This document shows positions 21,456 to 52,440 of a stretch of 64,000 nt of DNA, piece after piece. The notes under the pieces were generated by a model that saw only the letters and a list, made by a program, of their open reading frames with translations, was not told where the DNA came from and searched no databases. The position numbers were made by a program, and so were the translations under genes. Position 1 is the stretch's first letter, and every line of letters starts with the position of its first letter. The stretch comes from Symbiodinium sp. CCMP2592 (lineage: Eukaryota; Sar; Dinophyceae; Suessiales; Symbiodiniaceae): contig CAJNDT010003402.1 of assembly GCA_905221615.1 (NCBI GenBank), positions 548,750 through 612,749 on the forward strand. Direction: 5' to 3'.

Positions 21456-21514
21456 TTTTTTGTTTAATTTTAAAGATCAATACGTGAGATTTTTGCTGGA
21501 CTCTTTCATTCAGC

Positions 21515-22434: not shown

Positions 22435-22606
22435 AGCACGCACCAAAGCCTAGACTGATGGGTATTGGAGGCCCTTAGCCCGAACTTGTTCCAGCCCTCC
22501 ACACATATACGACATCGTCCAACCTGTCTTGAAGAAGCAGACCCAAAACCTTCAGCCCAACTGTTCTCGTGGTGTACATAATAAATAGCGGTTAACCCTG
22601 TGATAC

Positions 22607-22975
22607 ATGCTTTGCTGCAGCACTGTGCTCAAAGCCCTGGCTACTGTTGGACGGAGATCCAGCAGGTCGCTAGCTAGTGTTGGGCGGAGATCCAGCACCT
22701 CGCCTCGAGCTCTCATGGTGGGATTCACCAGAAGGGTCCGAAGAAGAAGGCGAAAAGAAAGGCTGGCTGCTGCCTTGAAGGCAACTCGGGCACTGTTTCG
22801 GGCGATCAGGGCCGTCAACAGGGAGGACAGAAGAAAGAAAGATGGTGACAAGAAGAAGGACGACGACAGCCAAACACCTGAGCAAAGAAGAGAAGACTTC
22901 CACAAGTGGTACCTTCGAGTGCTTCACCGTTTGTACAATGCAAACCAAATCCACTGGTTCGTGGAACGCAAGTGA
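22607..22975 (+). CDS. Basic Arg-rich ORF, 122 codons (copy 2)
   Basis: Second copy of 5238-5606. Compared with copy 1 it has A to C at about 22712 (Ile to Leu) and C to A at about 22723 (synonymous). Confidence 0.4.
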   Translation: MLCCSTVLKALATVGRRSSRSLASVGRRSSTSPRALMVGFTRRVRRRRRKERLAAALKATRALFRAIRAVNREDRRKKDGDKKKDDDSQTPEQRREDFHKWYLRVLHRLYNANQIHWFVERK

Positions 22976-23490
22976 TCATGAGCCGCCGACCAAAAAAGTC
23001 GCCCGTATGCTGCTTGCTGTCAAGGCATAGAGGGAGGGGGAGGGTATAGGTAGGGGTAGGGGATAGGGTTTATTTACGGTAGGGTTTAGGTGGGGTAGGG
23101 GCAGGGTACGGTCGGGTTACGGTGTGTGACGGCAAGCTCTGGCAGGACACTTGGACCTGACGCCGGGCTGCTGCAGCTGATCGCCGTTTTTCCGGTTGCT
23201 TGGGCCAGCCATTCCGGGCAAACACTAGGACCCCAAAGTAGCGTGAGATAAGCGTGAGAAGTCGTGAGAAGGCCCATCCTTGGCCTGGCCTAAGTCTAGC
23301 AAAGCTCTTAATGGAAACCGTGAGCAAACCGTGAGAAACCGTGAGAAGGTCGCCGGCCGGGTGCACAAGTGGCACGCCTGGGCACTCGCACACGTGCTTT
23401 CGGTTGTGGTTTTGTGCTCCAGCAACAGCCAGCATTTTGCTGGCGAGGGTGTTCTCTAGCTAGCAGCTTTACTTGCCGACGACGGCAGCC

Positions 23491-23676
23491 ATGGATGCCT
23501 TCTGTTTGGAGCAGCTCCTCGCCGACGGGCGCCAAGCCCGACATGCACTCCGAAAACAAAGCTCCAGGCCCGCCCGAAGCCCCAGGAAAAAAAAAAAGCC
23601 CACCTATAACGGCCAAGGAGCAGCATCGGCAGCTGCACCACTGGCACAGGCCACCGCAGTGCCTCTGTCGTCGTGA
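23491..23676 (+). CDS. Small ORF MDAFCLEQLLADGRQARHAL (copy 2)
   Basis: Second copy of 6122-6307. The frame assignment is tentative. Confidence 0.3.
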   Translation: MDAFCLEQLLADGRQARHALRKQSSRPARSPRKKKKPTYNGQGAASAAAPLAQATAVPLSS

Positions 23677-23705
23677 TCAGTTAGCACACACAGACACGCA
23701 TGCAG

Positions 23706-23773
23706 CAGGTACCCCGGAAGAGCAGCCGGTCCTGAGAAGGAAGCGAGCCAAGTCACAGGACCCCTTCCTCTAG
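23706..23773 (+). CDS. Short exon GTPEEQPVLRRKRAKSQDPF (copy 2)
   Basis: Second copy of 6337-6404. Confidence 0.35.
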
Positions 23774-23816
23774 TGTAGGGAGCACAGGAGTCGGGATCTG
23801 ATTTCCCATTGTGCAG

Positions 23817-23905
23817 GATTCCAATGCATCCACGGATGTTGCTCTGTGGTCGAAGAACCCGAAGTCTGCTGCTGCCGAACCCAAGAAGATCAAGACCAAG
23901 GACCC
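23817..23905 (+). CDS. Exon DSNASTDVALWSKNPKSAAA (copy 2)
   Basis: Second copy of 6448-6536. The A/C difference near 23940 lies downstream of it, in the presumed intron. Confidence 0.5.
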
Positions 23906-23969
23906 CCCCTCCCCCCGCATCTGTTGGTGTAGCCTAGCCCCTAAACTCTACATCCCCCCTTTGATCCAG

Positions 23970-24059
23970 GATGTTCGCCGAAGCTTGCAATCTGATCTGG
24001 AAGCTGCAGAGGCCATTGTTTTCCAAGCCTCTCGTCGCCTTGAAATTATAGCTAGACTG
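23970..24059 (+). CDS. Helical exon DVRRSLQSDLEAAEAIVFQA (copy 2)
   Basis: Second copy of 6601-6690. Confidence 0.5.
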
Positions 24060-24070
24060 CATCCTGTCAG

Positions 24071-24131
24071 GACGAGCCGGAAGCGCCGCCCGTGCCAGGG
24101 AAGGCCAAGCCCGAAACCCCAACAACCCCAG
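24071..24131 (+). CDS. Pro-rich exon DEPEAPPVPGKAKPETPTTP (copy 2)
   Basis: Second copy of 6702-6762. Confidence 0.45.
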
Positions 24132-24156
24132 ACCTTCAAACTTCGTCGCTGGCCAG

Positions 24157-24237
24157 GACACAAGCCAGCCGGGCCAGCCGCAGCAGAAGAAGTCGCCGAA
24201 ATCCTCGGAGGAGGCCGCTAGCCCGAGTGAAGCCTAA
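24157..24237 (+). CDS. Short exon with QQKKSPKSSEEAASPSEA end (copy 2)
   Basis: Second copy of 6788-6868. Confidence 0.5.
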   Translation, partial: DTSQPGQPQQKKSPKSSEEAASPSEA

Positions 24238-24377
24238 TGCCGTGGTCCGTCAGCACGCACTAAAGCCTAGACCCCGTATCGCGAATCCCAAATCGACGCC
24301 TGTGATTTCTTGCCGCAGTAGCTTTTTCTGGCTCCGCTTCTTATGTATTGGATTCCCAAAGTACAGGCCTGCCGCCA

Positions 24378-24853
24378 TGGACACTGTATCAGGTATCGCC
24401 GTCTTCTGGGATAGGATCTTCGCTTTCGCAGGCTCTTCTTATTTTTTGTCGATTATCCTCGATGAAGGGGACGACTATGATGGCAGGTGGACTGAGCACC
24501 TCACTCTCATCGAACGCAGAACCGAATACCTCTTGCATCTTTGGGGGCCTTATCATGGAATGTTTGCAGTGGCTCCTGGTGCATATACTCCATATGAACT
24601 TCGTTGGGACAATGTGATCCTGGAGGGCTGCAAACTGGATTTTGTGTTCTTCCGTACCGTGACGGCTCTGTCTTCGTCATGCTTCATATCGCTATCCGAT
24701 TATTCCGTTCCTGCATCCTTGTACTATTCTGTGCTGGGTCCACGGAATGAAGCGGAGATGCATTTCAGTTCGCCGGCATTCCAAGAGTTGCAAGTGAGAG
24801 GGGCTGTTTGTGCCATAGCCTTCCCGCCGTGTGACCTCCACACACTGGATTAA
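24378..24853 (+). CDS. ORF MDTVSGIAVFWDRIFAFAGS, 158 codons (copy 2)
   Basis: Second copy of 7009-7484. The only nearby difference (near 24315) is upstream of the ATG. Confidence 0.45.
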
Positions 24854-25324
24854 TCTGATCTGTGCGGGAGACATGTGGGAAATATCAAGAGAAGACATGA
24901 TCGTCGACAGACACGAAAAAACGTATCCCGTGCACAAGCAGTGACTGGCATTTGTAAAGACGGGTTGATGGATAAATATATTATATATTCCTGACGGACC
25001 CGAAACCTACACCCAATTGGGATCTAGCAGGCCCCCTCCAGGTAAAGAGCCATTCAATAGAGGCCCCTACATCACACCCTAAGCCCTACACCCCAAACCC
25101 CTGAACCCAAAGTCCTGAACACGGGCCCTAGCCCCAAGCCCTCTTCGATAGCTGATTCTAATAGGCCTCTACATAACCCTCGCCCCGAAGGCCTCTTGAG
25201 TTGCAAAGGTTGGAACTTGAAGGATTGAGTTTCCGGTTCGGGAAAAACCGAACGAAACCCCGAAGCCCTAGATCCTACACCCTCTTATAATACATATAAC
25301 CAACTGCAAGAAGTCGCTCTGCAG
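24854..25324. other. Intronic stretch, no gene seen (copy 2)
   Basis: Same as 7485-7955: an AT-rich patch then C-rich words. Confidence 0.5.
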
Positions 25325-26220
25325 GAAGACAGCCAGCTCGAGAAGAAGCAGACCTCGCCCAAGGATTCCCAGCAGTCTTTGATTCAAGATCCCAAACTCC
25401 AACGCAAATCGATCACTGAGCAGGAAGCCATCAAGCCCAAGAAGAAGCACACTTCGCCCCAGGATTCTAAGGAGCCTTTCAAATAAGCGATCCTTTAAAA
25501 TCCAATTAACTGCCATTCTGCAGGAAGCGAGAAAGCCCGAGCAGAAGCAGACCCCGGCGAAGAGTTCCGAGGAGCCGTTCTTTAAGATCCTTAAACTCCC
25601 AGACCAAATTACATGTGATAAGTGAGACACTCTGCAGGAAGACAGCCAGCTCGAGAAGAAGCAGACCCCGCCGAAGAGTTCCGAGGAGGCTGTATAACTC
25701 TAAGATCCCAGACTCCTGCTAAACCATATATATATATATAGTCACTCTCCAGGAAGACACCAAGCCCGAGAAGAAGAAGACCCAGGCGAAGAGTTCCGAG
25801 GAGCCTTTCTTTTAGATCCTTAGACTCCTATTGAAAATCACATGTGATAAGTCACTCTGGAGGAAGACAGCAAGCCCGAGAAGAAGCAGACCCCGCCGAA
25901 GAGTTCCCAGGAAACTTTAACTTTATAAGATCGCCCAGACTCCTACTATAAACCAGCAGATATATATAGTCACCCTGCAGGAAGACACGAAGCCCGAGAA
26001 GAAGCAGACCCCGCCGAATGAGGCTGATTCGCTTTAAGACTCCTAAATTCAATGCAAAGCAAATAGAATCGAAGCCACTCCGCAGGAAGCCGGCAAGAAC
26101 AAGAAGAAGCAGACTTCGCCGAAGGATTCCGAGGGTGCTTTCTTTAATAGCCCACACACACTGTGCACGCAGGAAGGCAGCAAATCCGAGAAGAAGCAGA
26201 CCCCGGCGAAGTCTTCCCAC
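25325..26220 (+). CDS. Array of nine 48-base exons (copy 2)
   Basis: Second copy of 7956-8849, two bases longer because an AT microsatellite in the fourth intron has one more repeat. Number, order and sequence of the exon units are unchanged. Confidence 0.65.
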
Positions 26221-26320
26221 GAGGCCCTTGTTAAAAACCCGATAGCCCCACTAGGTGCCCTCCAAAAGCCCTCTCCCTACAACCCTTGAGCCCTACATAA
26301 ACCCTAGCTGCCCGAGACAG

Positions 26321-26386
26321 GTCGCAGAGCCGCCGAAGAAGATCGCCAAGCAGGACAGACCAGATCGCATCATGGCACAGCCTTGA
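26321..26386 (+). CDS. Short basic exon VAEPPKKIAKQDRPDRIMAQ (copy 2)
   Basis: Second copy of 8950-9015. Confidence 0.4.
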   Translation, partial: VAEPPKKIAKQDRPDRIMAQP

Positions 26387-26735
26387 AAGCTCTGTTTCTC
26401 CCTGGATTGTGGTCCATGCTAGCGATGCCCAGCCGAAAACCACAAACCCTCACACCCCAAACGATTCAACCCTAAAGTCTCCAACCTCCGACTTGTCGCC
26501 GAGGATTTAAACATGCTCTCCTGCTTTGCAGGGCTTGAACCCTAAACCCTTGAACCCTTCAACCTTACAGCCAAAACCCTTGAACGCCAAACCCTCTAAA
26601 TTCTTCAACACTTAAACCCCAAACCCTTTAGCGGTAAACCTTTAAACCTGAACCCTTAACCCCAAATCCCAAAACCCCTTAACCCAAAACCCTTAAGCCT
26701 AAACCCTGAAACCCTAAACGCTTAAACCCATCCAG

Positions 26736-27033
26736 GAGGATGCTGCCGAGAGCGCCGATGATTCCTGGAGCTCCTGGTCCTGGAATGCAAGTGCCGGACA
26801 GGACAACCACTGGTGGTACGGCAACAACAGCAGCTGGTGGAGCGGGGGCTGGGAAAAGTCGTGGGAACGGCAGCCTGGGGCTTCAGGGGACAATGCAGGT
26901 GGCCAGGAGCAGCAGGAGGAGCCATCGGCAGAAGCGGATTCAAAGCAGGATGAGGCCAAGCAGGCAAAGAAGAGACAAGCCTACTTGCAGGCACATGCGA
27001 AGTGGGCCCGGTTCATGAGGAGCCTCGACAGCC
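26736..27033 (+). CDS. Trp/Gly/Asn-rich exon (copy 2)
   Basis: Second copy of 9365-9662. Here it continues into unique DNA and is followed at 27253 by the first exon of the conserved gene, so it is probably an N-terminal part of that gene. Confidence 0.6.
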
Positions 27034-27252
27034 CCTTGCACTTAATACATATCATGTCGGATATAGGCTTAAATGGGGTTTAGTGTATACCCGGTCCTGT
27101 TTGAAGACATAGGCCCACGGTCGCCGAACCAGATCGTTTCGGTGGGCGAGAATGCCAAGTCGGCTGGGGAGGGCAGCCCAAGCCTCAGACGAGATCCCAC
27201 AGTGTACTGATGATCACTTATATTAAATTAATGTTGGGCTTTGCTGTTCCAG

Positions 27253-39336: not shown

Positions 39337-39399
39337 CGCTTCGCTTTCGCTTTCGAGGCAAAGAATCCGAGTTGGATGCAGCCTAAAGTGCAAAACTAA

Positions 39400-42300
39400 T
39401 TAGAAAAAGGTGAAACGCCGTGGGTACTCGCCAGCACCGGGAAAGTTGGCGAGAATCTGGTATCCTCCACAATCGATGCTTACAGGAGCAATCTTCCTAA
39501 CTACTTCGAGGCCTGGACATGGAAAGTGCTGCACGACACAGAAGGCAGGTCGCCCGGCAGTCCAGAGCTGCAAAGTACCACGCACAGCATCGGCAAAAAG
39601 CCGGAGGCGCAGGAGGTGAGGAAAGAGTTGCTTGTAAGAGCGCAAGGATGTGGGGAAAACCAGGGAGGACAGCAAACCAAGGAGACAAAACCCTCGAACC
39701 GGACCAGCACTCTGGCACCAGGAGGTGATGTCAATCAAACTCGGGTCGCGGAAGCAAGAATCGTGGGACACAAACTCAAGTTTGTCGTCATCCGAGCAAC
39801 CTGATGGCCGATTACGGGCACAAAGCCATGTCCCGGTGCAACAATCTGCTGTCGAACACTCGATGTGTAACAGCTCAGTAATCAGCCAAGGCAGGATGGT
39901 TGCGGCATCACGAAAGGTCGCGATACCATGCTGCACAGCGGTAGGGTCAGGGACAAGCCAAGCAACAAAATCAACTCGAGTAAGGAAATCGGCAATTCGA
40001 TGGTGCCAAGTTGCCCATTCTACGGAGATCTCCTCACACCTCTCAAGCTCTTGATGCAGAGCTTCTTGCCAAGCAGTGGCAGTAGCCCGGAGTCTGGTAA
40101 CTTGCAGACACTGACCCTGAAAGGCAGACCGTACTGCCTCGAGGAGCTGCGCGAAATCCCCTTCTAGGGAGGGGTGTGCGAAAATATCTTCGAGCTTACG
40201 GAGGACCTCCTCAGAGGCTCTTTGGCTCTCGGGGATGTACAATGGATTACATCCTCTTGGCACAGGACCAGAGGCAGTAACAGCAGGGCATGGCTGATCA
40301 GCTCCGGAGTAGAAGCGTTTACTGCCTTTGCCTGGCTGGGGGTCACACGTGGCTCCGGCAGTTGCAAGAGCAGCAAGGCATGCGCGAGAGTGCTTGAGAT
40401 GGTTGCAGAGGCGGAAGTTGGACGCAAAATGTCTGAGACAAATCTTGCATCTCTGGCCCTCGGCAAAATATCGTTCCTCTCGGACACGACCGTGACACTT
40501 GAAGGCGTGGTGACTCCATTTACGGAGGTCCGAAAAGACCTGTCCACACACAGCACAGAGTTCGCTGGCATTCTGGCCAACAAGCAGGTCGTTCGCCGGG
40601 TGTGCTCCCTTAGCAAGGAGGAAGCGCAACAACAAACCATGGTAGTGCCCAACTTCGGCACTCCAGGTATCTTGTAGTTGTGCGTAGTGGACAGCCTGTG
40701 AAATGAGCCTTTTCCAAACCTGGGGCTTTTCCTTGGTCAGTGTTGTCAAGGCCTGCCAGTCAGCGAAGGCAGAAATGTCATTGCCAGCGCGGCTGTGTTG
40801 GCCCCTGATCCAGGCAAGGGAATCCTGCACAAGAAGGAGCCACTGACAATCATAGTGGAGGATGGCCCAAAACTCTGGAGGAGCTTTGGCGAGGGTGATG
40901 GAAAGGTGGCGAAGCCGAGCAGCATGAAGTTCGGTACAGACATTGGGGAGCCTGGCGACAGCAAGGATAAGCCCAGCGCCAAGATGTTGTGGAGCCTCTC
41001 GATGGTACGTTGGACGTAACATCTGCCGTGCCATTGCTAGCAACGCCCCTTGGAGGGGTTGCAATGCAGCCTCTTCCTGGTAAACCCAGGTACCCGCACC
41101 GAAGTATAGAGTTGAGGCAACAACAGATCGAAACAACAAGGCCTTCTCACGGTGCGTGATCAAAGGTGATGCAAAAACTGCTCGACGGTGCTTGCGAAAC
41201 GCCTGCCAAGCTTGTGCAACACGGGCGCGTAGTTCAACACTCAAAGAACCCTGCCAGTGCAGAATCCCACCTAGGTGTTTGTACTTGGCAACAAAGCGGA
41301 GCTTAGACGCGGGGTAGACCTGTGGCTGGAGCTCTATCCCAGGTTGTGGGTTGCGGAACAAAGCAGCGCGCAACTTGCGTGAGCCCCTTCCAACAAGAGA
41401 AACGATGGCCTCTGACTTGCCAGGATCTAAGTTGGGGTGCAGAAGAGCACGCACACACTCATCAAGCAGAACTTCTGCGGCTAATTTGGTGTCAGATATG
41501 AGACCATCTGCACTGGCGGACCAAAGCAGCAAAACAAGGTCATCCATCCATGACACGTCGATCGGCGCAAGCTGGTCAGTGGCAACAGCGGCTTTGTCAA
41601 GTCGACCGGCCCAGGCGGGATTCCAAGGGAGATGCACGGTCAGGCCAGCTCCGAGGAGGGCCTGGCGCACTCTTCGCAAAACAGCGGAGAAGAGGTAGGA
41701 AAATACTACGTCTGCTAGGGAATCACCAGGACGCGTACCAGCCTGCACGGCAGCAAGATGGCCATTGATACTGAACCAGGAATCTGTTTGAAATTCTGCG
41801 AGAAGTGCTGAAGCCCAGGGCGACGCGCCAGCCTCCCTGATGAGAGAGGCTTCACGAACGTATGTATGGAGTTCCTCGATGCCTGCAGGAGGTATGCCGA
41901 ACGTTTTCAAGACATACGCGACGTGCTCATCACTGAGATCGCCACCGTGAACAAGTGGGCGTGCGACACGGTGGAAGGCTTCACGGAGATCGAGGAAAAT
42001 TAGTGCAACGCTGTGGCCCTGCCTCAAAGCTGCCTGTTGGAAGGATCTTGCAGCTTGCGCTGCCAACTGGACAGGGAAGCCTCGCCTTCCTCCAATTTGT
42101 AGGGGGGAGGCAAGCGTTTCTAGCCAGGCCCCGCATTTGCTTCTGAAGGCAGAGTGTATGCACTTGCCTGCGTTGCTGGAGACTAAGATTCCTCGGTAGC
42201 TTGCACACTCCTGCTGCGGTCCTTTGGCTTTCCAAATCTTATGCATGGTCCCCCCTTTCATTTGCAATGGCTCTGTAAGCCGAAGTGCAGTCTTAAGCAT

Positions 42301-42903
42301 GATGGGGTACAGCACGGCAGAAAGGACAGGCGCTTGACATTTCCAGACTTCTGCAGGGAGCTGGTCGTTCCCAGCTGCACGTCCTACTTGGGACCGACGC
42401 ATTGCGTCCTCAAGTTCAAAGCGCGAAGGAAGCTCGGCAAGAACAACTTCGAGATCTGAGGTGTCAACGGCATCCTGTCGAGACAGACAGTGCGTGATGT
42501 GCTCCTCAGGAATGACTGGACCACCGTGCTCAATGCTACTAAAATGTCTGAGCCAACGCTCGTCAGCAGCATCAGGGGTGGCAGCATGTGTGCCATCCTC
42601 AAGGAGGACAGCCGGCAAAGGAGCAGGCCCACGCTGTTTGCGGCGGGGTGGCCCGACAAGCGGCCGGAGCTTCGCAACAACGTCGCGCGTAGCAAGGCTG
42701 CAAGCAGAGGTCGCAACCTCTGAGAGGTATGCCCTTCTGTCTTGTCCGAGGGACTGTCGAAACACAGGCTTTAGAGTCCTATAAGCTCCTTGACAGCCTC
42801 GAGCAGATGGGCAACTTGCGTAAGGACACGGAAAAAACCGATCACAACTGTCCTCAGAAGCAAATCGCCGTGCGACCAGGCAGCAAAAGCCCAGTGGAGG
42901 CAA
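39400..42903 (-). CDS. LINE reverse transcriptase with twin zinc finger, C-terminal frame
   Basis: This frame has 1167 codons. A linker (about residues 40-230) precedes the RT: CASYRGILVSSNAGK at 235, LIFLDLREAFHRVARPLVHG (first catalytic Asp region), QAGTRPGDSLADVVFSYLF and WMDDLVLLL with M453-D454-D455, the catalytic pair. A thumb/linker region includes YKHLGGILHW. Residues 783-842 form two Cys/His fingers (CAVCGQVF...H..KC and CKICLRHF...H..H). About 325 residues of unknown C-terminal domain follow. The frame overlaps the upstream ORF by 133 bases and its first 35 or so residues are probably not used. Translation would need a -1 shift from the upstream frame, or the break is a mutation. 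Confidence 0.9.
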   Translation of the reverse strand: MPPLGFCCLVARRFASEDSCDRFFPCPYASCPSARGCQGAYRTLKPVFRQSLGQDRRAYLSEVATSACSLATRDVVAKLRPLVGPPRRKQRGPAPLPAVLLEDGTHAATPDAADERWLRHFSSIEHGGPVIPEEHITHCLSRQDAVDTSDLEVVLAELPSRFELEDAMRRSQVGRAAGNDQLPAEVWKCQAPVLSAVLYPIMLKTALRLTEPLQMKGGTMHKIWKAKGPQQECASYRGILVSSNAGKCIHSAFRSKCGAWLETLASPLQIGGRRGFPVQLAAQAARSFQQAALRQGHSVALIFLDLREAFHRVARPLVHGGDLSDEHVAYVLKTFGIPPAGIEELHTYVREASLIREAGASPWASALLAEFQTDSWFSINGHLAAVQAGTRPGDSLADVVFSYLFSAVLRRVRQALLGAGLTVHLPWNPAWAGRLDKAAVATDQLAPIDVSWMDDLVLLLWSASADGLISDTKLAAEVLLDECVRALLHPNLDPGKSEAIVSLVGRGSRKLRAALFRNPQPGIELQPQVYPASKLRFVAKYKHLGGILHWQGSLSVELRARVAQAWQAFRKHRRAVFASPLITHREKALLFRSVVASTLYFGAGTWVYQEEAALQPLQGALLAMARQMLRPTYHREAPQHLGAGLILAVARLPNVCTELHAARLRHLSITLAKAPPEFWAILHYDCQWLLLVQDSLAWIRGQHSRAGNDISAFADWQALTTLTKEKPQVWKRLISQAVHYAQLQDTWSAEVGHYHGLLLRFLLAKGAHPANDLLVGQNASELCAVCGQVFSDLRKWSHHAFKCHGRVREERYFAEGQRCKICLRHFASNFRLCNHLKHSRACLAALATAGATCDPQPGKGSKRFYSGADQPCPAVTASGPVPRGCNPLYIPESQRASEEVLRKLEDIFAHPSLEGDFAQLLEAVRSAFQGQCLQVTRLRATATAWQEALHQELERCEEISVEWATWHHRIADFLTRVDFVAWLVPDPTAVQHGIATFRDAATILPWLITELLHIECSTADCCTGTWLCARNRPSGCSDDDKLEFVSHDSCFRDPSLIDITSWCQSAGPVRGFCLLGLLSSLVFPTSLRSYKQLFPHLLRLRLFADAVRGTLQLWTAGRPAFCVVQHFPCPGLEVVRKIAPVSIDCGGYQILANFPGAGEYPRRFTFF

Positions 42904-45900
42904 CCCGACTCAATTCCAACACTAGCACGGTGTGCTTGTTTGCGCCACCAGACACGTTGCTGGCGGAAGTTCCAAGTCGTGTCTGAAAAGAAGGTCCTCC
43001 GTCGGGAAGTTCGCTGCTTGGGAAAGGCTTCGGCGAAGCCCTTCACAAGATGCTCAGTAACGGCATGGTAGTGATTATGCACATTGACACTCCAAGGCAC
43101 ATCCGGTACAGTGCTGCAGATTCGGTGGATTGTTTGGCGGGACTCAGGCAACAGAAGCCTGGCAGTGTCAAAGCGTGTGTTCTTTGGGCCATGACGAAAC
43201 CCTGGGGGGAGTGTGACCTCGACGTCGAGTCTCACCGCAAAATGGTCGAGTCCGGCCTGCCCGAAATCGACTTCATATAACACAGCAGAACCTCCTTCGC
43301 CAACAGGCCAAGAGGTGGGGATAAGGATATAATCGATCCTTGAAACTGCCTGGCCAGCAGGAGCAACCCATGTATGGCTCAAGCCATGATGGCAGGCAGT
43401 GTATGTCGAAGGGAGCCAAAGGTCGAGTCGTTGTATAAGGTCGAAGAAGGCAGAGGGAGGCTCGTGCTCGTTCTCCCAAACGATATCGCCGATTCGATCA
43501 TGCACTGGAGCGCAGATGCGTGCATTCAAATCACCGAGAATGATAACCCGATCATGCCTAGCACAGCTGTAGGCCTTGGCACAGAACTCTTTCCACCAGC
43601 CGTCCCTCTCAGCACTTCCGGAGGTGGGCGCATGACACACGATGATCACTAGTCGAAAAGAATCCTTGACAAGCCGGACAATGAGGCATCTTGGGGACCA
43701 ATGCAGAACACTGAAGTCGGCAGTGTCACAATGGATTGGCCGGTTGCCAAACCATCCAATCGGGATTGATCGCGATATCCACAGCTCTACACCTAGATTG
43801 CCTTGCCCGTCGCATGCGGAGATAAAGCGAATGTGGCTCTGCGACGTGACTGTAGAGGTGGTCTTGGCTCTAGTTTCCTGCAGACCAATGATGGAACAAC
43901 CAAGGAGCTCTAACTGCTCTCTGACAAAGGGTACCCTGTTGGGCTGGGCACCTGGGGCTTCGCAGAGTGTCTGCACATTGACAGAGACGATCCGAACTGA
44001 AAGTTGGAAGGCAGTGCTATCAGTAGATTTGTTGGTTGCAGCAGCAAATGCCGTTCCAAAGAAGGCCTCTGGTTCAAGCCGTCGTGCCTCTGAAGCACCT
44101 TGGCCTCCTGGGTCAACTAGGAGACCATCGAGCAGGACTGGTAGTGTGCCATCAGCGGGAAGCGCAGCAATGGTAAGCCAGAGCCATTCAAGGGTTTGGT
44201 CCCTGGCACAACTGCAATACCACCAGAGAAATTCTGGTATCGTGCTGTTTTCTACAAGTTCATTGCCTGCAAGCACATCAGCGAGTTCATTGTATGGGTC
44301 CCCGGAGTGGCCCTTAACATGCCGAATAACAAGACGATTGTTTTTGTGCAGGGCGTCATGGACCTGAACAATCGCCCGACAGGCTTTGACAAATGCAACA
44401 TCTGTGTTGGCACCATAATGTCCCTCAGCCTGGTTGGCTGCAATGAGGCAGTCGCTGTGCAGAGTCCTGGGAAGACTCTTATCGATACCGAGCAGCCAGC
44501 AGGCAGCCCAGAAAATGGCAGTTCTTTCCCCATTAACTGCACTGTGACCTTCAGCCCCAGGGTATAGCGACTCATCTGGGTCGGCAACTGTGCCCTTGGC
44601 CCATGCAAAAAGAAAGGAGCCAGCAGCAGTGTGCCCGATGGCAACAAAGGCCCAGGAACCGATCTTTCCATTGTAGGAACCATCGGTGTATACATCGAGG
44701 CTGCCTATGCCAATCCGCAGTCCTTGCTCAACAGGGATATGCTCTGAAAGGATACCAATGGTGGCAGGGTGCAGATCTAAATTGTCAGGCAGTGCAGAGG
44801 GGAGGATCCATGAATGGGCGAGGGCCTCAAATAAGTCAGCAATGCGAAAGGGCGACGGCATCTGGGGAAGGGCAAGGTTGTGACAAACAGTGCTAGGGAT
44901 TGTCTCAGCAAGCCTCAAAACACGTGCGTTGACAGGAGCATTGTCAGGCTTGGCAAAGTGTGCAACAAGTGTGTCAAGCAGTGTCGCAGCAAGGAAAATG
45001 GGGTGGTCGTCACTGTCTTGTCTACTTTGCTCAAGTAGAGTGACAAGCCCTTGAGCAAACCAATCTTCTTGGGAATTGTCGTCAACCGCATGACAAGGTC
45101 CGGCAACAGACCCCCAAGCACTGCTAGGTAACCTGGTGTCTCGCCGACACGGTGTCGGAATGGGACGAAGCGATGCTAGGGCACTGGTTGCACCAGACTC
45201 GACACTGGGCTTATCAGTACGTATCTGAACAGCCCCGACTTGCGCAGGAAGAGTGGTAAGGAAACAAAATCCAAGCAAAAGACGGTTGCGCATGAGGCAC
45301 TTGACACCCTTACAAATGACATCGGCAACAGAGAAAGTGGCTCGCGAGCAACCTGGGTCATTGCCAAATAAGAGCGCGCTGCTGGCCCCGGTGCCTTTTC
45401 CGGCACCATGTGAGGTGCCATGCGTTGCTGTGGGGAGTGTAGTTGCGGAGGTAAGACGATCCTCGGTGTGCGGTGCCCCAGCAACTGGGCGTGCTGGGGC
45501 AGGCAGGGAGGTGCGCGGGGAAGCGTCAGGGGAACTCCCGCCATCATCGTCTGGCAGGGCTGTGGACGGTCCAGAGAGTTCTGACCTTGGAGAGGCGGGT
45601 ATCTCCCTTACATAGAAAGCTACAAGGACCTGACCCGGTGCAAACCAGACCCAATCCCAATGTGATGGGCACCCAACAAATTCAACATCAAAACCAGCAG
45701 GTGCTGTTTGACGAAAACTATTGCGTAGCGGGTGAAGAGGGAGCCAATCGGAGTGGGAAAAGATGCGATACCATCCTTGCAACAGCAAGCGGCAGTCAAC
45801 GAACCCAATGGCCCGGTTAGCAGCGACCTCACTGTCATTCTCGCCAACAGCAACAACATTCTGGCAGAGCCGGCCATATACACAGGCATCCCGAATACCT

Positions 45901-47396
45901 GGAACTGCTGGAGTGATTGCGAGGTACTCAAGCCTAAGGCCATGCCGACTTGCAAGGTCTGCTCTGTACAGGAAAGAGCGAGCAGGTGATAGCAAGAAGG
46001 TGGAGTAAGCTAAGTCAGTCACAACACAGAAGTGACTGTCCTGAGCACCGTCAACAACTGTGTGGCTGGTACCATATTCCTCTTCAGGGGAGAAGTGGTA
46101 CGTAGCTGGTACCCCACTGGGGCAAATGCAAACCCTCTGTCCAGAGTAGGTGCGGATCTCGCGACCGTCCTCGAGAGCAACATGGTGTGCCTGGCAATAT
46201 ACCTCAACGTCTGCGCCTGTGGCGAGGCCTGCAAACTGCAACAGCATGAACTTGTCCGCATAACGAGGAATCTGCTGTGCAAACAGTCTACCGTCAAGTG
46301 TGCGAAGATCGAAGAGGACAGTGCTGGAAGTACACGGCCAAGCTGGGCAAGCAACACAAATGACAACGTGATCAGTGTCGGGATGCTGCACAAGAACAGC
46401 ATCGGGGAAGTAGGGCAGGAGTGGGTCCTGCCTTGCTCTCTCAACCCGCTCAAGGAGTTCAAACTCACCTAGTCCGACAGACCCTTGGCATGCGAAAACG
46501 ATGACGGGGAAGTTGGGCACAAAGAGCTTGACGGTGGTGGGACCAGAGGGCCTCACAATTGTATCCTGGCCTTCAGTGCGCTGAAGATCGCTGCCAAGGA
46601 CAATTTGGAGTCCAGGATCTCCACTTGGTGGACCGAGATTGGATTGATCTCCAGGAGCATGCTCATTTACAGGACTCTGCTCGGGTAGGAGGACAGAGGT
46701 GGAGTCAACATGCTGTGTGTTCTCGAGAACACTGGCAGAGGTCGGAGACCACGTGGCTACTCTACTACCAGAGGCTACACTTTCATCAAGCGCAGCAAGT
46801 CCATCAATGCTTGCGGCAGGGGCTTGGCCATGGCTCTCGGGAATGAATCGAGGCGATCTACTCCTTTGGTCTGGCTGATTATGACGATTCCTCCACCGAC
46901 TGTTTCCTCGACGTCCTGAGCGTGTGTGCCGATCGTCATCAGGACCGTCGGGCGCATTGTCATCAGGAGGGTCATTATCACTGTCCTCTAGCAAATCCTC
47001 AAGAAAATGGACGGATAAAACCCCCCCTCTAACGAGCTGAAAGAAAGGCCCATCAGGCCCGTTGCTAACACTAGCACCCTTGACTATGACTGCATAACCC
47101 TGCGGACACTCGGGCTGGAAGGCAGCAACAACATCTTGGACAGGAACGATGCCGTTGTTATACAAACGCCATTGAAACCCTCTCAGCACAGGCCGAGCAT
47201 CAATGAAAATCGGGACCCGCCTTTGTGGCAATGAGAACCCCTGACGTCGGAACACCTTGTGTGTAATGGTCAGCAGTCTGGGGTGCGGTGGGAAGCACTG
47301 TGAGGAAGGTGGCGCGACTGCGCAGGGCTTGGATAAGATCCTGCCGGAATGCAGACCTTCGGCCAGCTTGGACCTTAAACAGAAGCGGCATCCCAT
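42771..47396 (-). CDS. LINE polyprotein middle frame: module 3, RNase H, AP endonuclease
   Basis: This frame has 1541 codons. The start (residues to about 60) overlaps the upstream frame and is unlikely to be used. In order: second half of module 2 and an acidic linker (to about 165); module 3 (about 280-600) with VLFDLRTLDGRLFAQQIP and GFVDCRLLLQGWYRIF; a hydrophobic LLLGFCFLTTLPAQVGA; RNase H with DVYTDGSYNG (D905), NGERTAIFWA, LHSDCLIA and HVKGHSGDPYNELAD; AP-type endonuclease with SVNVQTL (N1140), GLQETRA, ILGDLNARI, VSRIDYILIP and GLDHFAV (D1384-H1385). All expected catalytic residues are visible. RNase H upstream of the endonuclease is unusual, since LINE RNase H normally lies after the RT. 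Confidence 0.9.
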   Translation of the reverse strand: MGCRFCLRSKLAEGLHSGRILSKPCAVAPPSSQCFPPHPRLLTITHKVFRRQGFSLPQRRVPIFIDARPVLRGFQWRLYNNGIVPVQDVVAAFQPECPQGYAVIVKGASVSNGPDGPFFQLVRGGVLSVHFLEDLLEDSDNDPPDDNAPDGPDDDRHTRSGRRGNSRWRNRHNQPDQRSRSPRFIPESHGQAPAASIDGLAALDESVASGSRVATWSPTSASVLENTQHVDSTSVLLPEQSPVNEHAPGDQSNLGPPSGDPGLQIVLGSDLQRTEGQDTIVRPSGPTTVKLFVPNFPVIVFACQGSVGLGEFELLERVERARQDPLLPYFPDAVLVQHPDTDHVVICVACPAWPCTSSTVLFDLRTLDGRLFAQQIPRYADKFMLLQFAGLATGADVEVYCQAHHVALEDGREIRTYSGQRVCICPSGVPATYHFSPEEEYGTSHTVVDGAQDSHFCVVTDLAYSTFLLSPARSFLYRADLASRHGLRLEYLAITPAVPGIRDACVYGRLCQNVVAVGENDSEVAANRAIGFVDCRLLLQGWYRIFSHSDWLPLHPLRNSFRQTAPAGFDVEFVGCPSHWDWVWFAPGQVLVAFYVREIPASPRSELSGPSTALPDDDGGSSPDASPRTSLPAPARPVAGAPHTEDRLTSATTLPTATHGTSHGAGKGTGASSALLFGNDPGCSRATFSVADVICKGVKCLMRNRLLLGFCFLTTLPAQVGAVQIRTDKPSVESGATSALASLRPIPTPCRRDTRLPSSAWGSVAGPCHAVDDNSQEDWFAQGLVTLLEQSRQDSDDHPIFLAATLLDTLVAHFAKPDNAPVNARVLRLAETIPSTVCHNLALPQMPSPFRIADLFEALAHSWILPSALPDNLDLHPATIGILSEHIPVEQGLRIGIGSLDVYTDGSYNGKIGSWAFVAIGHTAAGSFLFAWAKGTVADPDESLYPGAEGHSAVNGERTAIFWAACWLLGIDKSLPRTLHSDCLIAANQAEGHYGANTDVAFVKACRAIVQVHDALHKNNRLVIRHVKGHSGDPYNELADVLAGNELVENSTIPEFLWWYCSCARDQTLEWLWLTIAALPADGTLPVLLDGLLVDPGGQGASEARRLEPEAFFGTAFAAATNKSTDSTAFQLSVRIVSVNVQTLCEAPGAQPNRVPFVREQLELLGCSIIGLQETRAKTTSTVTSQSHIRFISACDGQGNLGVELWISRSIPIGWFGNRPIHCDTADFSVLHWSPRCLIVRLVKDSFRLVIIVCHAPTSGSAERDGWWKEFCAKAYSCARHDRVIILGDLNARICAPVHDRIGDIVWENEHEPPSAFFDLIQRLDLWLPSTYTACHHGLSHTWVAPAGQAVSRIDYILIPTSWPVGEGGSAVLYEVDFGQAGLDHFAVRLDVEVTLPPGFRHGPKNTRFDTARLLLPESRQTIHRICSTVPDVPWSVNVHNHYHAVTEHLVKGFAEAFPKQRTSRRRTFFSDTTWNFRQQRVWWRKQAHRASVGIESGCLHWAFAAWSHGDLLLRTVVIGFFRVLTQVAHLLEAVKELIGL

Positions 47397-50300
47397 CTGT
47401 GAGGATGTAGTAGTGGCTGCCAGGGTGCGCTTCAGGACCAGGAATCATGACATCTAGGCTCCATGGCATGGGATCCTGTAGCATTTCAGCGATGTCATAC
47501 ACTGCTGGAGCGCCGGCTGTGTGCGCAGTGATGATCAGCATGAGACCTGAGAAAAGGGTGATGTGTTGCTGCATTGCCAAGGGCTGTATCAGCCCATGCA
47601 CAAAGACTTGATGTGGCACATCATGGCTGAAGCCGGCTGCAACAAGAATGGATTCACGGCTGAGTGTCAAGGGAACAACAGCAGCAAATACACTCCCATC
47701 GATCCTTCTGCAATCGATGAGAACAATGGCACGATCTTGCAACCAGTCTGGAGCAGCTACGAAGACAGCTGAATCTTGACATGGCTGCGGTTGCACCGGA
47801 ATGAGCCTGGGGAACCTATCCCGATAGCCTTCACTTCTGCACTCCTGTAGTGCTTGCACAGCCTGTTCAATCCCACACGGAATGGGAAAAGACAATACAA
47901 TGAGTTCCGGCATGTATTCAGGTGTGTAAGTGAGTGTCAGGACTGGCGTCCGGGCTCGTTCTGCTATGGCGAGGTTTTCGGGAGCGACAGGCAACATGGG
48001 GGTGTCTGCTGTCCCGCCATCGGTTGCAGCCTCACCTGGTGCTGGCGTAGAGACAGGAGGTCCCTGGCTGGACCCACGAGCCTCATTTCCAGTATCGTGG
48101 GCGAGGCTGGAAAGTGCATTCCAACTATGGCCAGAAGGAAGCGTGGAATCTTCCTGCCAAGTTGTTTGATGATGGACAACGCTGGGAACCCCGAAAGTGC
48201 CGTCAATCGGGAAACCCCTCTCATCAAAGGATGGGTCCCTGAGCCACTCGTTCCAAGCAACAGTTGCTGGTGCAGGTGGCGGAACGGAGAGAATGCTGAC
48301 GTCCTCTGCCTCAGGAGGCAACGCCGGCAGAACACGATGGCCTACAGGCTCGTCTTGCACATCGTGGTCAGCACTCGAACTTGAGTCCTCAGAATCGTCT
48401 GATGGAATGCCTTCTGCGAAGAAAAGCAGGGTAGAATTGGGGGCGAAGTGTACATCCTCACCTTGTCGACTTCCCCCAGTAACCCCAAGCCTAAGGGCGG
48501 CAGAGAGGACTAAACCGAATCGGGCTGCAAGGGAGGGAACATGTAGCGCCGGGTAGTTCGTGTATATGAAACACGGCTTGTACCCAAGTGGTCGAAGGTC
48601 ACACAACACAAAAATATCCCGGCGACCACTTCTATCTTGCGTCCTAGCATTGTGGGGACTAATGCTATGGGCTGCTATGATGTGCTCGCAATGCTGTCCT
48701 TGCACGTCAAGGTTGGAGATGCGAAAAGAGCACATTATGGCCTCACCTGCCTGAATGCCGAGTCGTTGAGATACAAACTCAACAGTGGTGAGCCCATAAT
48801 GATGGGATGGCTGGCACGTGTATCTCTGATCATTGCTGTTCAGCACACACACAGCATCAGGAGACTCTATGCGCGGCAGGTGGGCAACGGGCGCCCATTG
48901 GAATGGCTCTCTGAAAAGGGCCTCGGTGCTTATCGTGCCGTTTGGAGTGTCTGGATACCACGAAGCGACAATGACGTCACCATCATGCAAATCGACTTCT
49001 GCAACCTCAGGCCATGCTCTTCGCCTACCCCCAACGAAATAGTAAACCTGTCCCTCCTGCTCACTGGTGAGGGGAACAACATATTCGTTGAGGCGATCGA
49101 GAGAGAGCTTGCGGGGAAGGACATTGGCAAAATAATGTCCACCAACCCTTGTCAAGTCGAGAATGACAGATGCAGTGCCGACAGGTCCGATGTACCTAGC
49201 AGAGTTTGGAACCCTAACTAGAGTAAGAGACCCTGGATGTCTTTGTGGTCTGGCAGGAATGAGCGTGTGAAAAAGCCCTCTTGGCACACCTGGGGCTTGT
49301 TCCTTGATGATATCTAGGATTGGGTGGATTCCAGCCCGCGGATCAGCCTCAACTGCACAGGTGATAGTGCAGTAATGTGGGGTATACACATGAACTCCAA
49401 GCCATTGCCGATCTGCACCTTCCTGGGTCGGCGGCAAGTCTCGCACATCCTGTAAACAGAGCCTAGGGTCGGGTGGGGGTATGTCGTCGGGGTGCTCCCA
49501 AGAGAGAACAACATGATTCGTACCGACATAGGCTGTGAGTTCCTCGGGAGGAATCTCATGGGGCCGTCTGGGCCTAGGGTCGTCTGGAGGCTCACCTGAT
49601 CGTGCCATCGCAAGGGAGCCAACTGGGAGAGCCCAAGCAAATTGGGAAACCCATGGCGAAGCAGCACCGGAGGCTGTTGGGATTGCGAGAAAGCAAAAAA
49701 TACTACCCCAAAAACGACTCCAGCGACCAATCCGTGGCACTTTACAATGGCCACCTCCACTGCGAAGTTGCCTTTTCCCTGCCCATGGCTTCCACGAAAG
49801 TGGGCCATCGAGCTGCCCAACCTGGCCAAGTGGGACAGCCCAGCAACTCTGAAACCCAATCTTATGTGCAATGCCAAACACAGATGAGAGGGTTCTGCAT
49901 GGTCGAAAGCAGAGCGCGCACAAGGCTCCAGCTAACATTGCAAGCAGGGTCCTGAAGAAAGCGACAGCGAGTGACCCAAGAAAACAAAGGCCAGAAGCAA
50001 GGGTGGCTGCACATGCTTGTCCAAAACGGGAAACACGAGCGGGTGGTGGGCGTCCCAGAGCAACCGATACGCCTCTTATGCACTCACCCTTTGCCAAAAA
50101 GGCAACAGCAGCTTTAGCTCTAAAATGCTCCTGTGGTGTGCTGTTCCCTTTCTCAAAACTGCTGCCCCTAGCTGCACAGATTGGTCCAGAAGGGTGGACA
50201 GGCTCACCCGTATCATCAACAGAATCTGCCAAAACTGCATCCGGGGTGCCATTGCTGCAGAAGTCAAAACTCCTGGGCGGGCAGCCAAAAGAAGAGGCGC

Positions 50301-50541
50301 CTTGCACCCAGTGGGCAGTAGAGGAAGAGAATGCCCCGTCACGACCAAAGGGAAGAAGCCACTCACACTCAAGGGTAGCCGGCCCAGCGCCACCGATCCG
50401 ACTTTTAGGCACTCCTTGGAGGTGTGAGTAACACAAAGGCAAAGAAAACTGCCAAGAACCGGCAGATGGCGAGGCCCAGCTACCAACTGTGAAAGCCCAA
50501 CACAGTGGTAACTGAGCAGAGGAGACTGACAAAGGGGGCAT
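47200..50541 (-). CDS. LINE polyprotein N-terminal frame: modules 1 and 2
   Basis: The frame is open upstream to 52245, but there it only shadows ORF1a. The first Met after ORF1a ends is at 50541, giving 1114 codons. The N-terminal 300 residues are hydrophobic-rich, with two membrane-like segments (LASGLCFLGSLAVAFFRTLL and WGSIFCFLAIPTASGAA). Module 1 (plus 48400-49410) has WLGVHVYTPHYCTIT, SVILDLTRVGGHYFANVLP and FVLCDLRPLGYKPCFIYTNY. An acidic Ser/Asp linker follows. Module 2 (plus 47200-47960) begins TLTYTPEYMPELIVLSF and IVLIDCRRIDGSVFAAVVP but its second half lies in the next frame. The frame change falls inside a module, so this ORF and the next were once continuous. Confidence 0.75.
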   Translation of the reverse strand: MPPLSVSSAQLPLCWAFTVGSWASPSAGSWQFSLPLCYSHLQGVPKSRIGGAGPATLECEWLLPFGRDGAFSSSTAHWVQGASSFGCPPRSFDFCSNGTPDAVLADSVDDTGEPVHPSGPICAARGSSFEKGNSTPQEHFRAKAAVAFLAKGECIRGVSVALGRPPPARVSRFGQACAATLASGLCFLGSLAVAFFRTLLAMLAGALCALCFRPCRTLSSVFGIAHKIGFQSCWAVPLGQVGQLDGPLSWKPWAGKRQLRSGGGHCKVPRIGRWSRFWGSIFCFLAIPTASGAASPWVSQFAWALPVGSLAMARSGEPPDDPRPRRPHEIPPEELTAYVGTNHVVLSWEHPDDIPPPDPRLCLQDVRDLPPTQEGADRQWLGVHVYTPHYCTITCAVEADPRAGIHPILDIIKEQAPGVPRGLFHTLIPARPQRHPGSLTLVRVPNSARYIGPVGTASVILDLTRVGGHYFANVLPRKLSLDRLNEYVVPLTSEQEGQVYYFVGGRRRAWPEVAEVDLHDGDVIVASWYPDTPNGTISTEALFREPFQWAPVAHLPRIESPDAVCVLNSNDQRYTCQPSHHYGLTTVEFVSQRLGIQAGEAIMCSFRISNLDVQGQHCEHIIAAHSISPHNARTQDRSGRRDIFVLCDLRPLGYKPCFIYTNYPALHVPSLAARFGLVLSAALRLGVTGGSRQGEDVHFAPNSTLLFFAEGIPSDDSEDSSSSADHDVQDEPVGHRVLPALPPEAEDVSILSVPPPAPATVAWNEWLRDPSFDERGFPIDGTFGVPSVVHHQTTWQEDSTLPSGHSWNALSSLAHDTGNEARGSSQGPPVSTPAPGEAATDGGTADTPMLPVAPENLAIAERARTPVLTLTYTPEYMPELIVLSFPIPCGIEQAVQALQECRSEGYRDRFPRLIPVQPQPCQDSAVFVAAPDWLQDRAIVLIDCRRIDGSVFAAVVPLTLSRESILVAAGFSHDVPHQVFVHGLIQPLAMQQHITLFSGLMLIITAHTAGAPAVYDIAEMLQDPMPWSLDVMIPGPEAHPGSHYYILTDGMPLLFKVQAGRRSAFRQDLIQALRSRATFLTVLPTAPQTADHYTQGVPTSGVLIATKAGPDFH

Positions 50542-50840
50542 GCCGAACCCAAAAGTCCAAAGGGCACGACAGCTCCCTCGTCTGCAAGGTGGGGCAGCAG
50601 TCGATTCTTCAAAAGTGCAGGCCTCGATTCCTATTGACTCGGCTGTGTGAGACCAGTAATCTCGACGGCTTTGCCCAATGTCAGGCCTTTCCGAGCTGCA
50701 TTGACCAGGGGGATGTGAACAAAGAGTGATCACAACCCCAAGTTGTGATCGACTCGCGTAAGGTCCCCATAGCCTGCCAACCCAGAAAGCTTGACACAAA
50801 GCTCGCCGCGAGATTACTCTACTGAAGCTCACGGCAGATC

Positions 50841-52097
50841 TCAGGTGTCTGGCGGCAGAGGCTTGGTAGATCCGTTGGCCTCGTCCGGCTCCTCGAAATG
50901 CTCGTCGTCGGTCTCGGAAACCTGGACCTCTAAGGGCTGGCCGTTGTGCGAGAACTTGAAAAGTCCAACACTCTGGGCTTCTTGTGGTCCGGTGCCACCA
51001 GATGGTGCAGGGCCCGTGCCAAAAGGGCGCATAGCTTTCCCAGCTTCCATGGCCTGTAGCATGGCTGCTGCCCTGACTGCCTCCAGCTTGTCCGCCAGGG
51101 GAACACCACCAGTGGTTGTATGTGCCACGCCACCCGGGTGGCTTGACTTGACTGGTTTCCTGGGCTGAGCGTTCTCCTTGGGCGCTCGGGTCTTTGGCCG
51201 GCTGCCACTGCGGGCACCTTCCATCGGATCCAGGCCTGGAGCTCCTGAAATCGTGGGTCGAACCGCAGTTGGAGAAAGCTGTTGAGGTTCTCGAGCACCA
51301 CCATCCCCGTATAGGGTCTCCCGTCCATCTGGCTGTGGAGGAAACGATGGATGTGGCGAACGTGGTGTTGCAAGCACACGTCGCGGAGGGGTGCCCCCAT
51401 CTTCCCCACACGGTGGGCGAGGACGGAGTCCTTGGCGGAGGGCTCCAAGCTGGGCCCTCCTCGCAGCTTCCAAAGCATCGCGAAAGAAGCCCGGTTCCGT
51501 GTCCATTTCCATGGTCGAACCCTGAGCCATCATTTCGTCCCAAGCTTGCTCCACTTCTTGGGCTTCGGTCGCCTGCTGCTGTCGCTCCGTGGAATGTCCG
51601 TACAGTGCTAGCAGTTGAACATCTTGTGCAGCTGTCTGCCCTGCAGCTGTGGCATTCTTGATCTCCTCTGCATTGCGAGCGAGGTCCGCGTCGTACTGCT
51701 TCTTCTGTTTGGAAAACGCCTGCTTCATCAAAGTGGAGTATTTTTCGAATTGCGTCTTGCGGTGGGCCGCTTCCATCCGCAACTTCTTGACCCTCATGTC
51801 CGCTTTCTTTGCCTGGGTCAAGGCACGCTGTACTTCTTTGTAGGCTACTGGGAGGTCCGTTTCGATCCCCTCCTCGGGTGCCTCTGCTGTCGGGGCTGCA
51901 GTAGCCCACCATTCCTGTCCAGTTTCGGCCTGGTCGTAGCGGAGGTGCACGGGGTTCTTCGCTGAGGCCTTCGGGGAGGCTGAGGCTGCACCACCCCACA
52001 GTCGCCATGACTGCCCATGTCCATGCCCATGTCCCTGGCCGCGTGAGTGCCAGGAGTCGTCGTCGTTCTGCCATGACTTCTTGCTTCCTCTTCCCAT
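50841..52097 (-). CDS. LINE ORF1a: basic coiled-coil protein
   Basis: The start is taken at MGRGSKKSWQ (52097). An upstream in-frame ATG at 52163 is possible but adds 22 residues without the typical start. The N-terminus is Gly/Ser/Trp-rich (RGQGHGHGHGQSWRLWGG), followed by a coiled coil (about residues 85-165: EVQRALTQAKKADMRVKKLR), a Gln/Glu stretch, a Pro/Arg-rich basic region (SRPKTRAPKENAQPRKPVK) and an acidic tail. LINE ORF1 proteins generally bind element RNA. Here the coil plus basic region fits that role, but no RNA-binding fold was recognised. It ends 300 bases before the first Met of the next frame. Confidence 0.75.
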   Translation of the reverse strand: MGRGSKKSWQNDDDSWHSRGQGHGHGHGQSWRLWGGAASASPKASAKNPVHLRYDQAETGQEWWATAAPTAEAPEEGIETDLPVAYKEVQRALTQAKKADMRVKKLRMEAAHRKTQFEKYSTLMKQAFSKQKKQYDADLARNAEEIKNATAAGQTAAQDVQLLALYGHSTERQQQATEAQEVEQAWDEMMAQGSTMEMDTEPGFFRDALEAARRAQLGALRQGLRPRPPCGEDGGTPPRRVLATPRSPHPSFPPQPDGRETLYGDGGAREPQQLSPTAVRPTISGAPGLDPMEGARSGSRPKTRAPKENAQPRKPVKSSHPGGVAHTTTGGVPLADKLEAVRAAAMLQAMEAGKAMRPFGTGPAPSGGTGPQEAQSVGLFKFSHNGQPLEVQVSETDDEHFEEPDEANGSTKPLPPDT

Positions 52098-52332
52098 ATG
52101 CACTCCCAACTCGCGATATCGAGGTGCTGTATGATGAGAAGCTAGCAAGGCTAGCGATCTCAAAGGAGGGAGCCGGCCTTGAGCACGGCAACGGTGTATA
52201 ACACCGCGAGCCAGACTTCGCCGCCTGCGAAGTCTTCTGTGCCACGCCGGACTATTGCAAATCGTGGTCTACCGAAAGGGACCACTGGGGTCTACAGGCA
52301 ATGCCGCTCTCGGCTGGCTCGATCCCGGACCC

Positions 52333-52345
52333 TACATGCATACAT
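52333..52345. repeat. Target-site duplication, LINE 5' side
   Basis: TACATGCATACAT, matching 39324-39336 exactly. Confidence 0.8.
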
Positions 52346-52440
52346 AGATACATACATACATACATACATACATTTTTAGATACATACATACATACAGCCA
52401 TACATACATACATACATAGATACATACATACACAGACAGA
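52346..52440. repeat. (CATA)n microsatellite, 5' flank of the LINE
   Basis: Tandem ATACATAC units with a few GATA interruptions. Together with 39050-39323 this indicates insertion into an ATAC-type microsatellite. Confidence 0.95.

Follow-up and report, generated by a model that had tools for sequence, protein, structure and literature searches.

A tandem array of three or four homologous units in ORF2 of a giant LINE family of the dinoflagellate Symbiodinium sp. CCMP2592

The second open reading frame (ORF2) of long interspersed nuclear elements (LINEs) is generally viewed as conserved and compact. SymbioLINE-Dnmt, a LINE of Symbiodinium, is described with a cytosine methyltransferase in an open reading frame (ORF) upstream of the ORF for the reverse transcriptase (RT) (PMC5890265). 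LINEs of the Jockey superfamily are reported to encode an ORF1 with one or two RNA recognition motifs (RRMs) plus zinc-knuckle modules, together with a highly constrained, tree-like ORF2 (PMC4120745). In the oomycete Utopia elements the RNase H lies upstream of the RT, a position termed unique in that report (PMC4640811), and insect TRAS/Jockey LINEs carry a helicase of viral origin (PMC5563155, PMC6338049). A study comparing 15 genomes handled Symbiodiniaceae LINEs as repeats (PMC8045281). The element analysed here is a LINE copy in a 64,000-nucleotide stretch of Symbiodinium sp. CCMP2592 (assembly GCA_905221615.1, contig CAJNDT010003402.1, positions 548,750 to 612,749), which as a whole is called the window; coordinates are window positions. 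Its ORF2 contains a tandem array of homologous units of about 308 residues upstream of the RNase H, endonuclease and RT.

Like SymbioLINE-Dnmt, the element is a dinoflagellate LINE with an additional domain in its coding region, and it differs in that the extra is an unrelated array in ORF2 (PMC5890265). Pfam found no DNMT in ORF1 of the window copy or of copy L012 (E ≤ 1) and none in the 15 polyproteins scanned. With ORF1 of the Jockey superfamily the element shares paralogous protein modules, shuffling of domains and a reticulate history; there the modules, with one to two RRMs, sit in ORF1, whereas the present array sits in ORF2 (PMC4120745). An RNase H 5' of the RT is shared with Utopia, in which a restriction-like endonuclease follows the RT and the RNase H has an R at a conserved His position, whereas here the endonuclease, located between RNase H and RT, is of the APE type and the RNase H reads HVKGHSG (PMC4640811). 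The TRAS/Jockey helicase LINEs likewise have an accessory domain in the polyprotein that was retained over time, but their accessory is a viral helicase and the present one is a tandem array of an unfamiliar domain (PMC5563155, PMC6338049). No LINE with a comparable array was found in a literature search that left out Repbase and most subscription papers, and no Pfam or PDB match was significant; both results agree with an earlier sequence-only reading of this DNA, which took the module to be unfamiliar in LINEs. ORF2 here carries a domain family that is under selection, has been duplicated and shuffled, and makes up about a quarter of the longest frame (four units, 1230 of 4881 residues), and the array makes the role of extra ORF2 domains directly testable.

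The sequence-only reading had described three tandem copies of a two-part module within one LINE polyprotein. All nine motifs that it quoted were located on the minus strand: VYTPHY (49372-49389), ILDLTRVGGHYFANVLP (49114-49164) and LCDLRPLGYKP (48574-48606) in unit 1; TYTPEY (47914-47931), LIDCRRIDGSVFAAVVP (47671-47721) and FIDARPVLRGF (47175-47207) in unit 2; and LFVPNF (46509-46526), LFDLRTLDGRLFAQQIP (46266-46316) and FVDCRLLLQGW (45771-45803) in unit 3. Homology of the three tandem units was borne out by BLASTP, Smith-Waterman and hhalign comparisons. With unit 2 represented solely by its first-frame part, BLASTP gave E-values of 1.6e-11 (units 2 and 3), approximately 8e-6 (units 1 and 2) and 0.005 (units 1 and 3), and Smith-Waterman z-scores for the same pairs were 17.8, 10.5 and 8.4, with none of 500 shuffles matching any score. 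Profiles of the copies of each unit aligned end-to-end in hhalign, with E-values of 1.5e-9 (units 1 and 2), 3.5e-39 (units 2 and 3) and 6.7e-13 (units 1 and 3). A lack of profile similarity, named in the sequence-only reading as the result that would overturn it, was thus not what these methods found. The unit array is real, an undescribed domain array within a known kind of element.

Run over the six window frames, a 308-position hidden Markov model (HMM) of the unit found no units beyond these three, unit 2 being split across two frames. The sequence-only reading needs a correction here: in the window copy the frame switches within unit 2, which puts the second motif of that unit in another frame. 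The number three was correct for the window and is not fixed, as family copies carry three or four units. Acidic linkers after the units were largely recovered: in long frames the 60 residues following a unit were net acidic in 68 of 72 cases, and the linkers of the window also start acidic. After window unit 3 the net charge was -3 in the next 40 residues, but the full 150 residues (12 D+E, 14 K+R) were not acidic.

The giant LINE family is large in this genome. In the 1.098 Gb assembly (5383 contigs), where units from the same element were counted separately and all counts are lower bounds, the unit 2 search scored at least 150 places among 1220 candidates, many of them in single frames of 3000-4881 residues. 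The unit 1 search gave at least 125 places (422 candidates, 124 scored) and the RT search at least 101 places (1356 candidates, 101 scored). Among 20 retrieved copies, which were selected for frames of 4094-4881 residues, the unit HMM found at least three units in 11 and at least four in nine; these are minima because several fragments were cut on the 5' side. The upstream piece of one copy, C746, contained no additional unit by the same HMM. Eight of the 101 places found by RT, again with long frames, were selected independently of the units and were absent from the HMM training; each of the eight carried three or more units upstream.

A tree of 81 units placed the first units apart (24 rows, support 100/99), and the remaining units formed a clade of 27 rows (87/84), a clade of 29 rows (98/97) and one loose row. 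Three classes (I, II and III) were derived from this tree, and class calls made with leave-one-element-out HMMs are therefore not independent of it; one call, that of unit 2 in L011, was weak (+29 bits). Class against class, the units compared with E-values of 2.3e-34, 7.7e-39 and 2.5e-60. Of 27 rows, 21 elements had all units present, and six, including the window, were incomplete. The 21 elements showed four orders: I-II-III (nine elements), I-III-III-II (seven), I-III-II (three) and I-II-III-II (two). The window copy reads I-(broken)-III. The unit array is older than the subfamily split, and its three classes occur in differing orders.

Two elements look mosaic, judging by affinities that switch between units 2 and 3. 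L009 was closer to L010 up to approximately residue 960 and closer to L013 from approximately residue 1021, in agreement with nonsynonymous divergence (dN) by segment; the switch falls in the unit 2-3 linker, and two intervals at 1861-1921 were exceptions. L012 and L028 were 0.86 identical in unit 1 and 0.80 in unit 2, and 0.17-0.33 from residue 1861 onward. Recombination in the linkers, for example by template switching, is the simplest account of these mosaics. Were each class to have its own partner, with the classes reshuffled between LINEs, the array would be a combinatorial adaptor cassette that gives each lineage its own ordered set of binding domains and with it a lineage-specific host interface or target choice, a possibility that we place on the unlikely side.

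Across 69 aligned units, G213, D239 and R241 were invariant and D68 was nearly so. The N half and the C half of this alignment matched each other in hhalign (E 1.1e-6, score 39.7), with D-x-R aligned on D-x-R, as against scores of 20.0 for the best of 100 column shuffles and 12.3 for the reversed control. Both D.R motifs of the proposed two-part module were present, and the two parts are probably homologous, so that each unit would itself be an internal duplication. By class, six of the nine pairs of halves gave E-values of 6.7e-6 to 9.1e-4 (the pair of class II N half and class II C half spans 37 columns only), and the three pairs with the class III N half were weaker (0.0036, 0.021 and 0.17). 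Given this uneven support, internal duplication is likely overall and unsettled for class III. The first quarter of the unit showed no similarity to the third, so clear symmetry is limited to the second part of each half. HMMs of the unit quarters, run on the long frames, found no extra unit piece; one match in the window RT (E 0.035) was taken as chance.

The invariant columns would also suit an enzyme, for instance a protease that processes the giant polyprotein with the D-x-R residues as catalytic, and Pfam, run on the three frames of the window and on 15 copies, detected no protease. We regard this as quite unlikely, since no enzyme match in Pfam or PDB was significant, no Ser, Cys or His occurs among the invariant or nearly invariant columns, and three to four diverged copies would be odd for a single enzyme.

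Purifying selection on the units is about equal to that on the endonuclease and RT, and the linkers are much freer. Between L024 and L027, with synonymous differences near saturation as in the other pairs, units 1, 2 and 3 had dN of 0.095, 0.146 and 0.187, RNase H had 0.123 and the endonuclease 0.088, and the linkers had 0.42-0.50. Corresponding values for L009 and L013 were 0.31-0.50 (units), 0.49 (endonuclease), 0.49 (RT) and 0.66-0.82 (linkers), and for L009 and L010 were 0.23-0.53, 0.59, 0.76 and 0.59-0.85; in both pairs unit dN was at or below that of the endonuclease and RT, within 0.01. Fourteen unit comparisons, three of them from L024 and L027, had dN of 0.095-0.37 with saturated synonymous divergence. 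At closer range, the window copy and the 96%-identical L002 differed in unit 2 by 15 synonymous and no non-synonymous changes over 230 codons; for the first part of unit 1, over 180 codons, the counts were 15 and two. Capture of a host gene that then duplicated by chance and persisted without function would recall the tandem-copy polyprotein genes described in dinoflagellates and ascribed to retroposition (PMC11453091). This origin is highly improbable: it is already contradicted by the dN comparison, in which purifying selection is far stronger on units than on linkers, and the units were kept in 20 of 20 and eight of eight elements, all selected for long frames.

The best overall explanation, which we hold tentatively, joins growth of the array in ORF2, linker recombination and a binding role. 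A half-unit duplication followed by whole-unit duplications likely produced the array of three to four units, and recombination within linkers likely exchanges blocks of units among elements. The array would serve as a multivalent binding scaffold for the ribonucleoprotein of the element. Each unit may consist of two beta-rich folds, possibly beta-grasp-like, and bind a partner, with element RNA, the ORF1 protein or a host protein as candidates, and the acidic linkers may act as flexible spacers. Several weak sites would jointly hold the ribonucleoprotein or deliver it to the target before target-primed reverse transcription. Of the possible roles we consider a scaffold the likeliest: the units recur in tandem, have diverged into classes, are spaced by acidic linkers and are under selection, and nothing points to a catalytic set. 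If the array binds, it would offer a natural modular system for retrotransposon steering.

Several results weigh against this explanation. The internal symmetry of class III is weak (N half against C half, E 0.17), and the 3' half of L012 was not close to either of two other elements tried, leaving its donor unfound. The dN of the linkers is also below saturation, so some constraint acts on them too. No homologue of known function was found for the unit in Pfam, PDB, viral, phage or genome-contig searches. The two AlphaFold models, built from the window sequences alone, were of low confidence (mean pLDDT 39.7 and 34.9), and Foldseek returned nothing at E ≤ 0.001 for them, the top rows being astrovirus spikes at E of approximately 1. 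A scaffold role alone also leaves the hydrophobic segments flanking the array unexplained.

The individual searches support the view that the unit belongs to no known family, as judged against Pfam and PDB. Among 69 units the best Pfam match was at E 0.021, in one unit, and the best PDB match to the unit profile was at E 0.9; neither was significant. Nothing that names the unit was found by Pfam in the window frames, 15 long copies, two ORF1s and two 3' pieces, or by PDB searches with the RT, RNase H/endonuclease and ORF1 (RNase H at E 0.36). Viral contigs searched with A3 gave 25 pattern matches and genome contigs searched with A2 gave 23, none confirmed, and phages searched with unit 1 gave no match. 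About half or more of predicted dinoflagellate genes are reported to be without annotation (PMC11453091), and the unit adds a protein family to this poorly annotated group.

Structure prediction of a unit, which the sequence-only reading had suggested, yielded a hint of beta-grasp-like halves. The low-confidence models showed a strand-strand-helix-strand-strand order, in both cases within the second part of the N half and in one also in the C half. This strand-helix order, together with the hydropathy pattern, would fit a beta-grasp and is similar to that of folds such as ThiS, for which sequence and structural matches were non-significant. Foldseek rows below the astrovirus spikes, likewise non-significant, included ThiS (3cwi, E 4.0) and LC3/GABARAP chains. 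By sequence, a ThiS/beta-grasp assignment was unsupported, with a single unit among the 69 matching Pfam ThiS, at E 0.04. When the genome was scanned for ThiS, three places came up, one of them over the cut-off, and none coincided with the listed unit places.

The flanking hydrophobic segments would also suit a membrane-bracketed or coat-like module, in which the array would function at a membrane or form a shell, for example after putative cleavage from the polyprotein by the host. A transmembrane (TM)-like 19-mer (mean hydropathy ≥ 1.6) occurred within 350 residues before unit 1 in all 13 elements and, in 16 of the 21 rows that could be used, within 380 residues after the last unit, as against six of 51 inter-unit linkers. 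The linkers are shorter (61-319 residues), which lowers their hydropathy maxima, and against shuffles of their own region the segments reached p < 0.05 in three of 13 cases before the array, 10 of 22 rows after it (one void) and 12 of 51 linkers. The evidence is one of hydropathy, and such a module is unlikely.

The sequence-only reading had assigned the repeated module to a LINE, and RNase H, APE-type endonuclease and RT do occur in the same element (Table 1). The element is an APE-type LINE, with an RT bearing the acidic motif, an APE endonuclease in the ORF of the RT, a separate ORF1 and no long terminal repeats (LTRs). An alignment of seven RT rows had MDD or ADD in six, and the seventh stops short of the motif. 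RVT_1 was detected in three of 15 long copies (best E 0.00053), many fragments stopping before or within the RT, and the PF03372 endonuclease in 10 of the 15 (best E 8.6e-12); in C746 endonuclease and RT share one open frame. ORF1 lies in a different frame from ORF2 in the window copy and likewise in seven of seven other copies inspected. No direct repeat was found between the two ends of the window element, and in C746 all 13 short matches from the same comparison (17-87 bp) lie outside the element; neither of these two elements thus showed LTRs. An unusual feature is the domain order, ORF1 - units - RNase H - endonuclease - RT.

The window copy is broken, with frame shifts within unit 2 and ahead of the RT, and its ORF2 is spread over three frames (47200-52251, 42771-47444 and 39400-42909). 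Such a split might recall an artefact, either a misassembly or an unrelated host multidomain gene beside a LINE. This has next to no probability, contradicted as it is by copies on different contigs that join units with endonuclease or RT in an open frame of up to 4881 residues.

Table 1. Features of the LINE copy in the window.
Feature	Position	Strand	Basis
Whole LINE copy (ends approximate)	39337..52332	minus	5' start block at 52332 matching other copies by eye; TATG repeats on both flanks
ORF1, 418 aa, coiled-coil-like, without Pfam family above cut-off	50841..52097	minus	ORF at equivalent position in 7/7 copies inspected (L012, L022, L024-L028)
TM-like hydrophobic segment upstream of unit 1	49909..49965	minus	Hydropathy; comparable segment in 13/13 elements with 350 aa before unit 1, window included
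Unit 1, class I	48418..49386	minus	Unit HMM; class from leave-one-element-out HMM
Acidic linker 1, net charge -11 in first 40 aa	47917..48417	minus	Sequence
Unit 2, initial part (~234 of 308 positions), same frame as unit 1	47203..47916	minus	Unit HMM
Unit 2, remainder, other frame (start approximate)	47007..47207	minus	Reading frame broken within unit; unit HMM
Acidic linker 2, net charge -6 in first 40 aa	46512..47006	minus	Sequence
Unit 3, class III	45615..46511	minus	Unit HMM; leave-one-element-out HMM
Hydrophobic segment downstream of unit 3, weak in window copy	45231..45281	minus	Hydropathy 1.53, shuffle p 0.55
RNase H	44259..44696	minus	Pfam PF00075, E 1.8e-7
APE-type endonuclease	43290..43925	minus	Pfam PF03372, E 2e-5
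Reverse transcriptase core (query stretch), WMDD at 41536-41553	41230..42462	minus	PF00078, E 0.026, below cut-off; aligns with 6 other copies
Cys/His zinc-finger-like motifs 3' of RT	40426..40557	minus	Sequence; in C746 copy zf-C2H2_4, E 0.036, below cut-off

The RNase H (44259-44696) sits upstream of both endonuclease and RT, and Pfam detected an RNase H in eight of 15 relatives. Gain or loss inside the family may account for this, as may excessive divergence or truncation in some of the fragments. Its HVKGHSG motif is one that we take to be of the H type.

At the 5' end of the element, the starting block common to the copies (by eye) is embedded in (TATG)n. In the window these repeats lie at 52333-52432 and approximately 39336; C746 and L026 lie in TA-rich repeats, and L012, L022 and L025 had no long simple repeat within the piece read. 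The (TATG)n or TA-rich surroundings of three elements, noted in the window, L026, L029 and L030, suggest a microsatellite target preference.

Elsewhere in the window, positions 1-9686 and 17375-27057 form a tandem duplication with a period of approximately 17.4 kb and 99.87% identity over 9.7 kb. Each duplicate contains a 265-residue open frame (6687-7484 and 24056-24853) with no Pfam match at E ≤ 0.1. DNA_methylase (PF00145) matched at least 124 places in the assembly; among them are serial frames of approximately 563 residues with near-equal scores, which resemble SymbioLINE-Dnmt elements. The 21-base core of the dinoflagellate spliced leader had 429 exact matches in the assembly and its reversed control had none, as fits a dinoflagellate host. 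Degenerate TTTAGGG/CCCTAAA-like repeats were dispersed in non-coding DNA at many places in the window outside 39337-52332 and also in L029 and L030.

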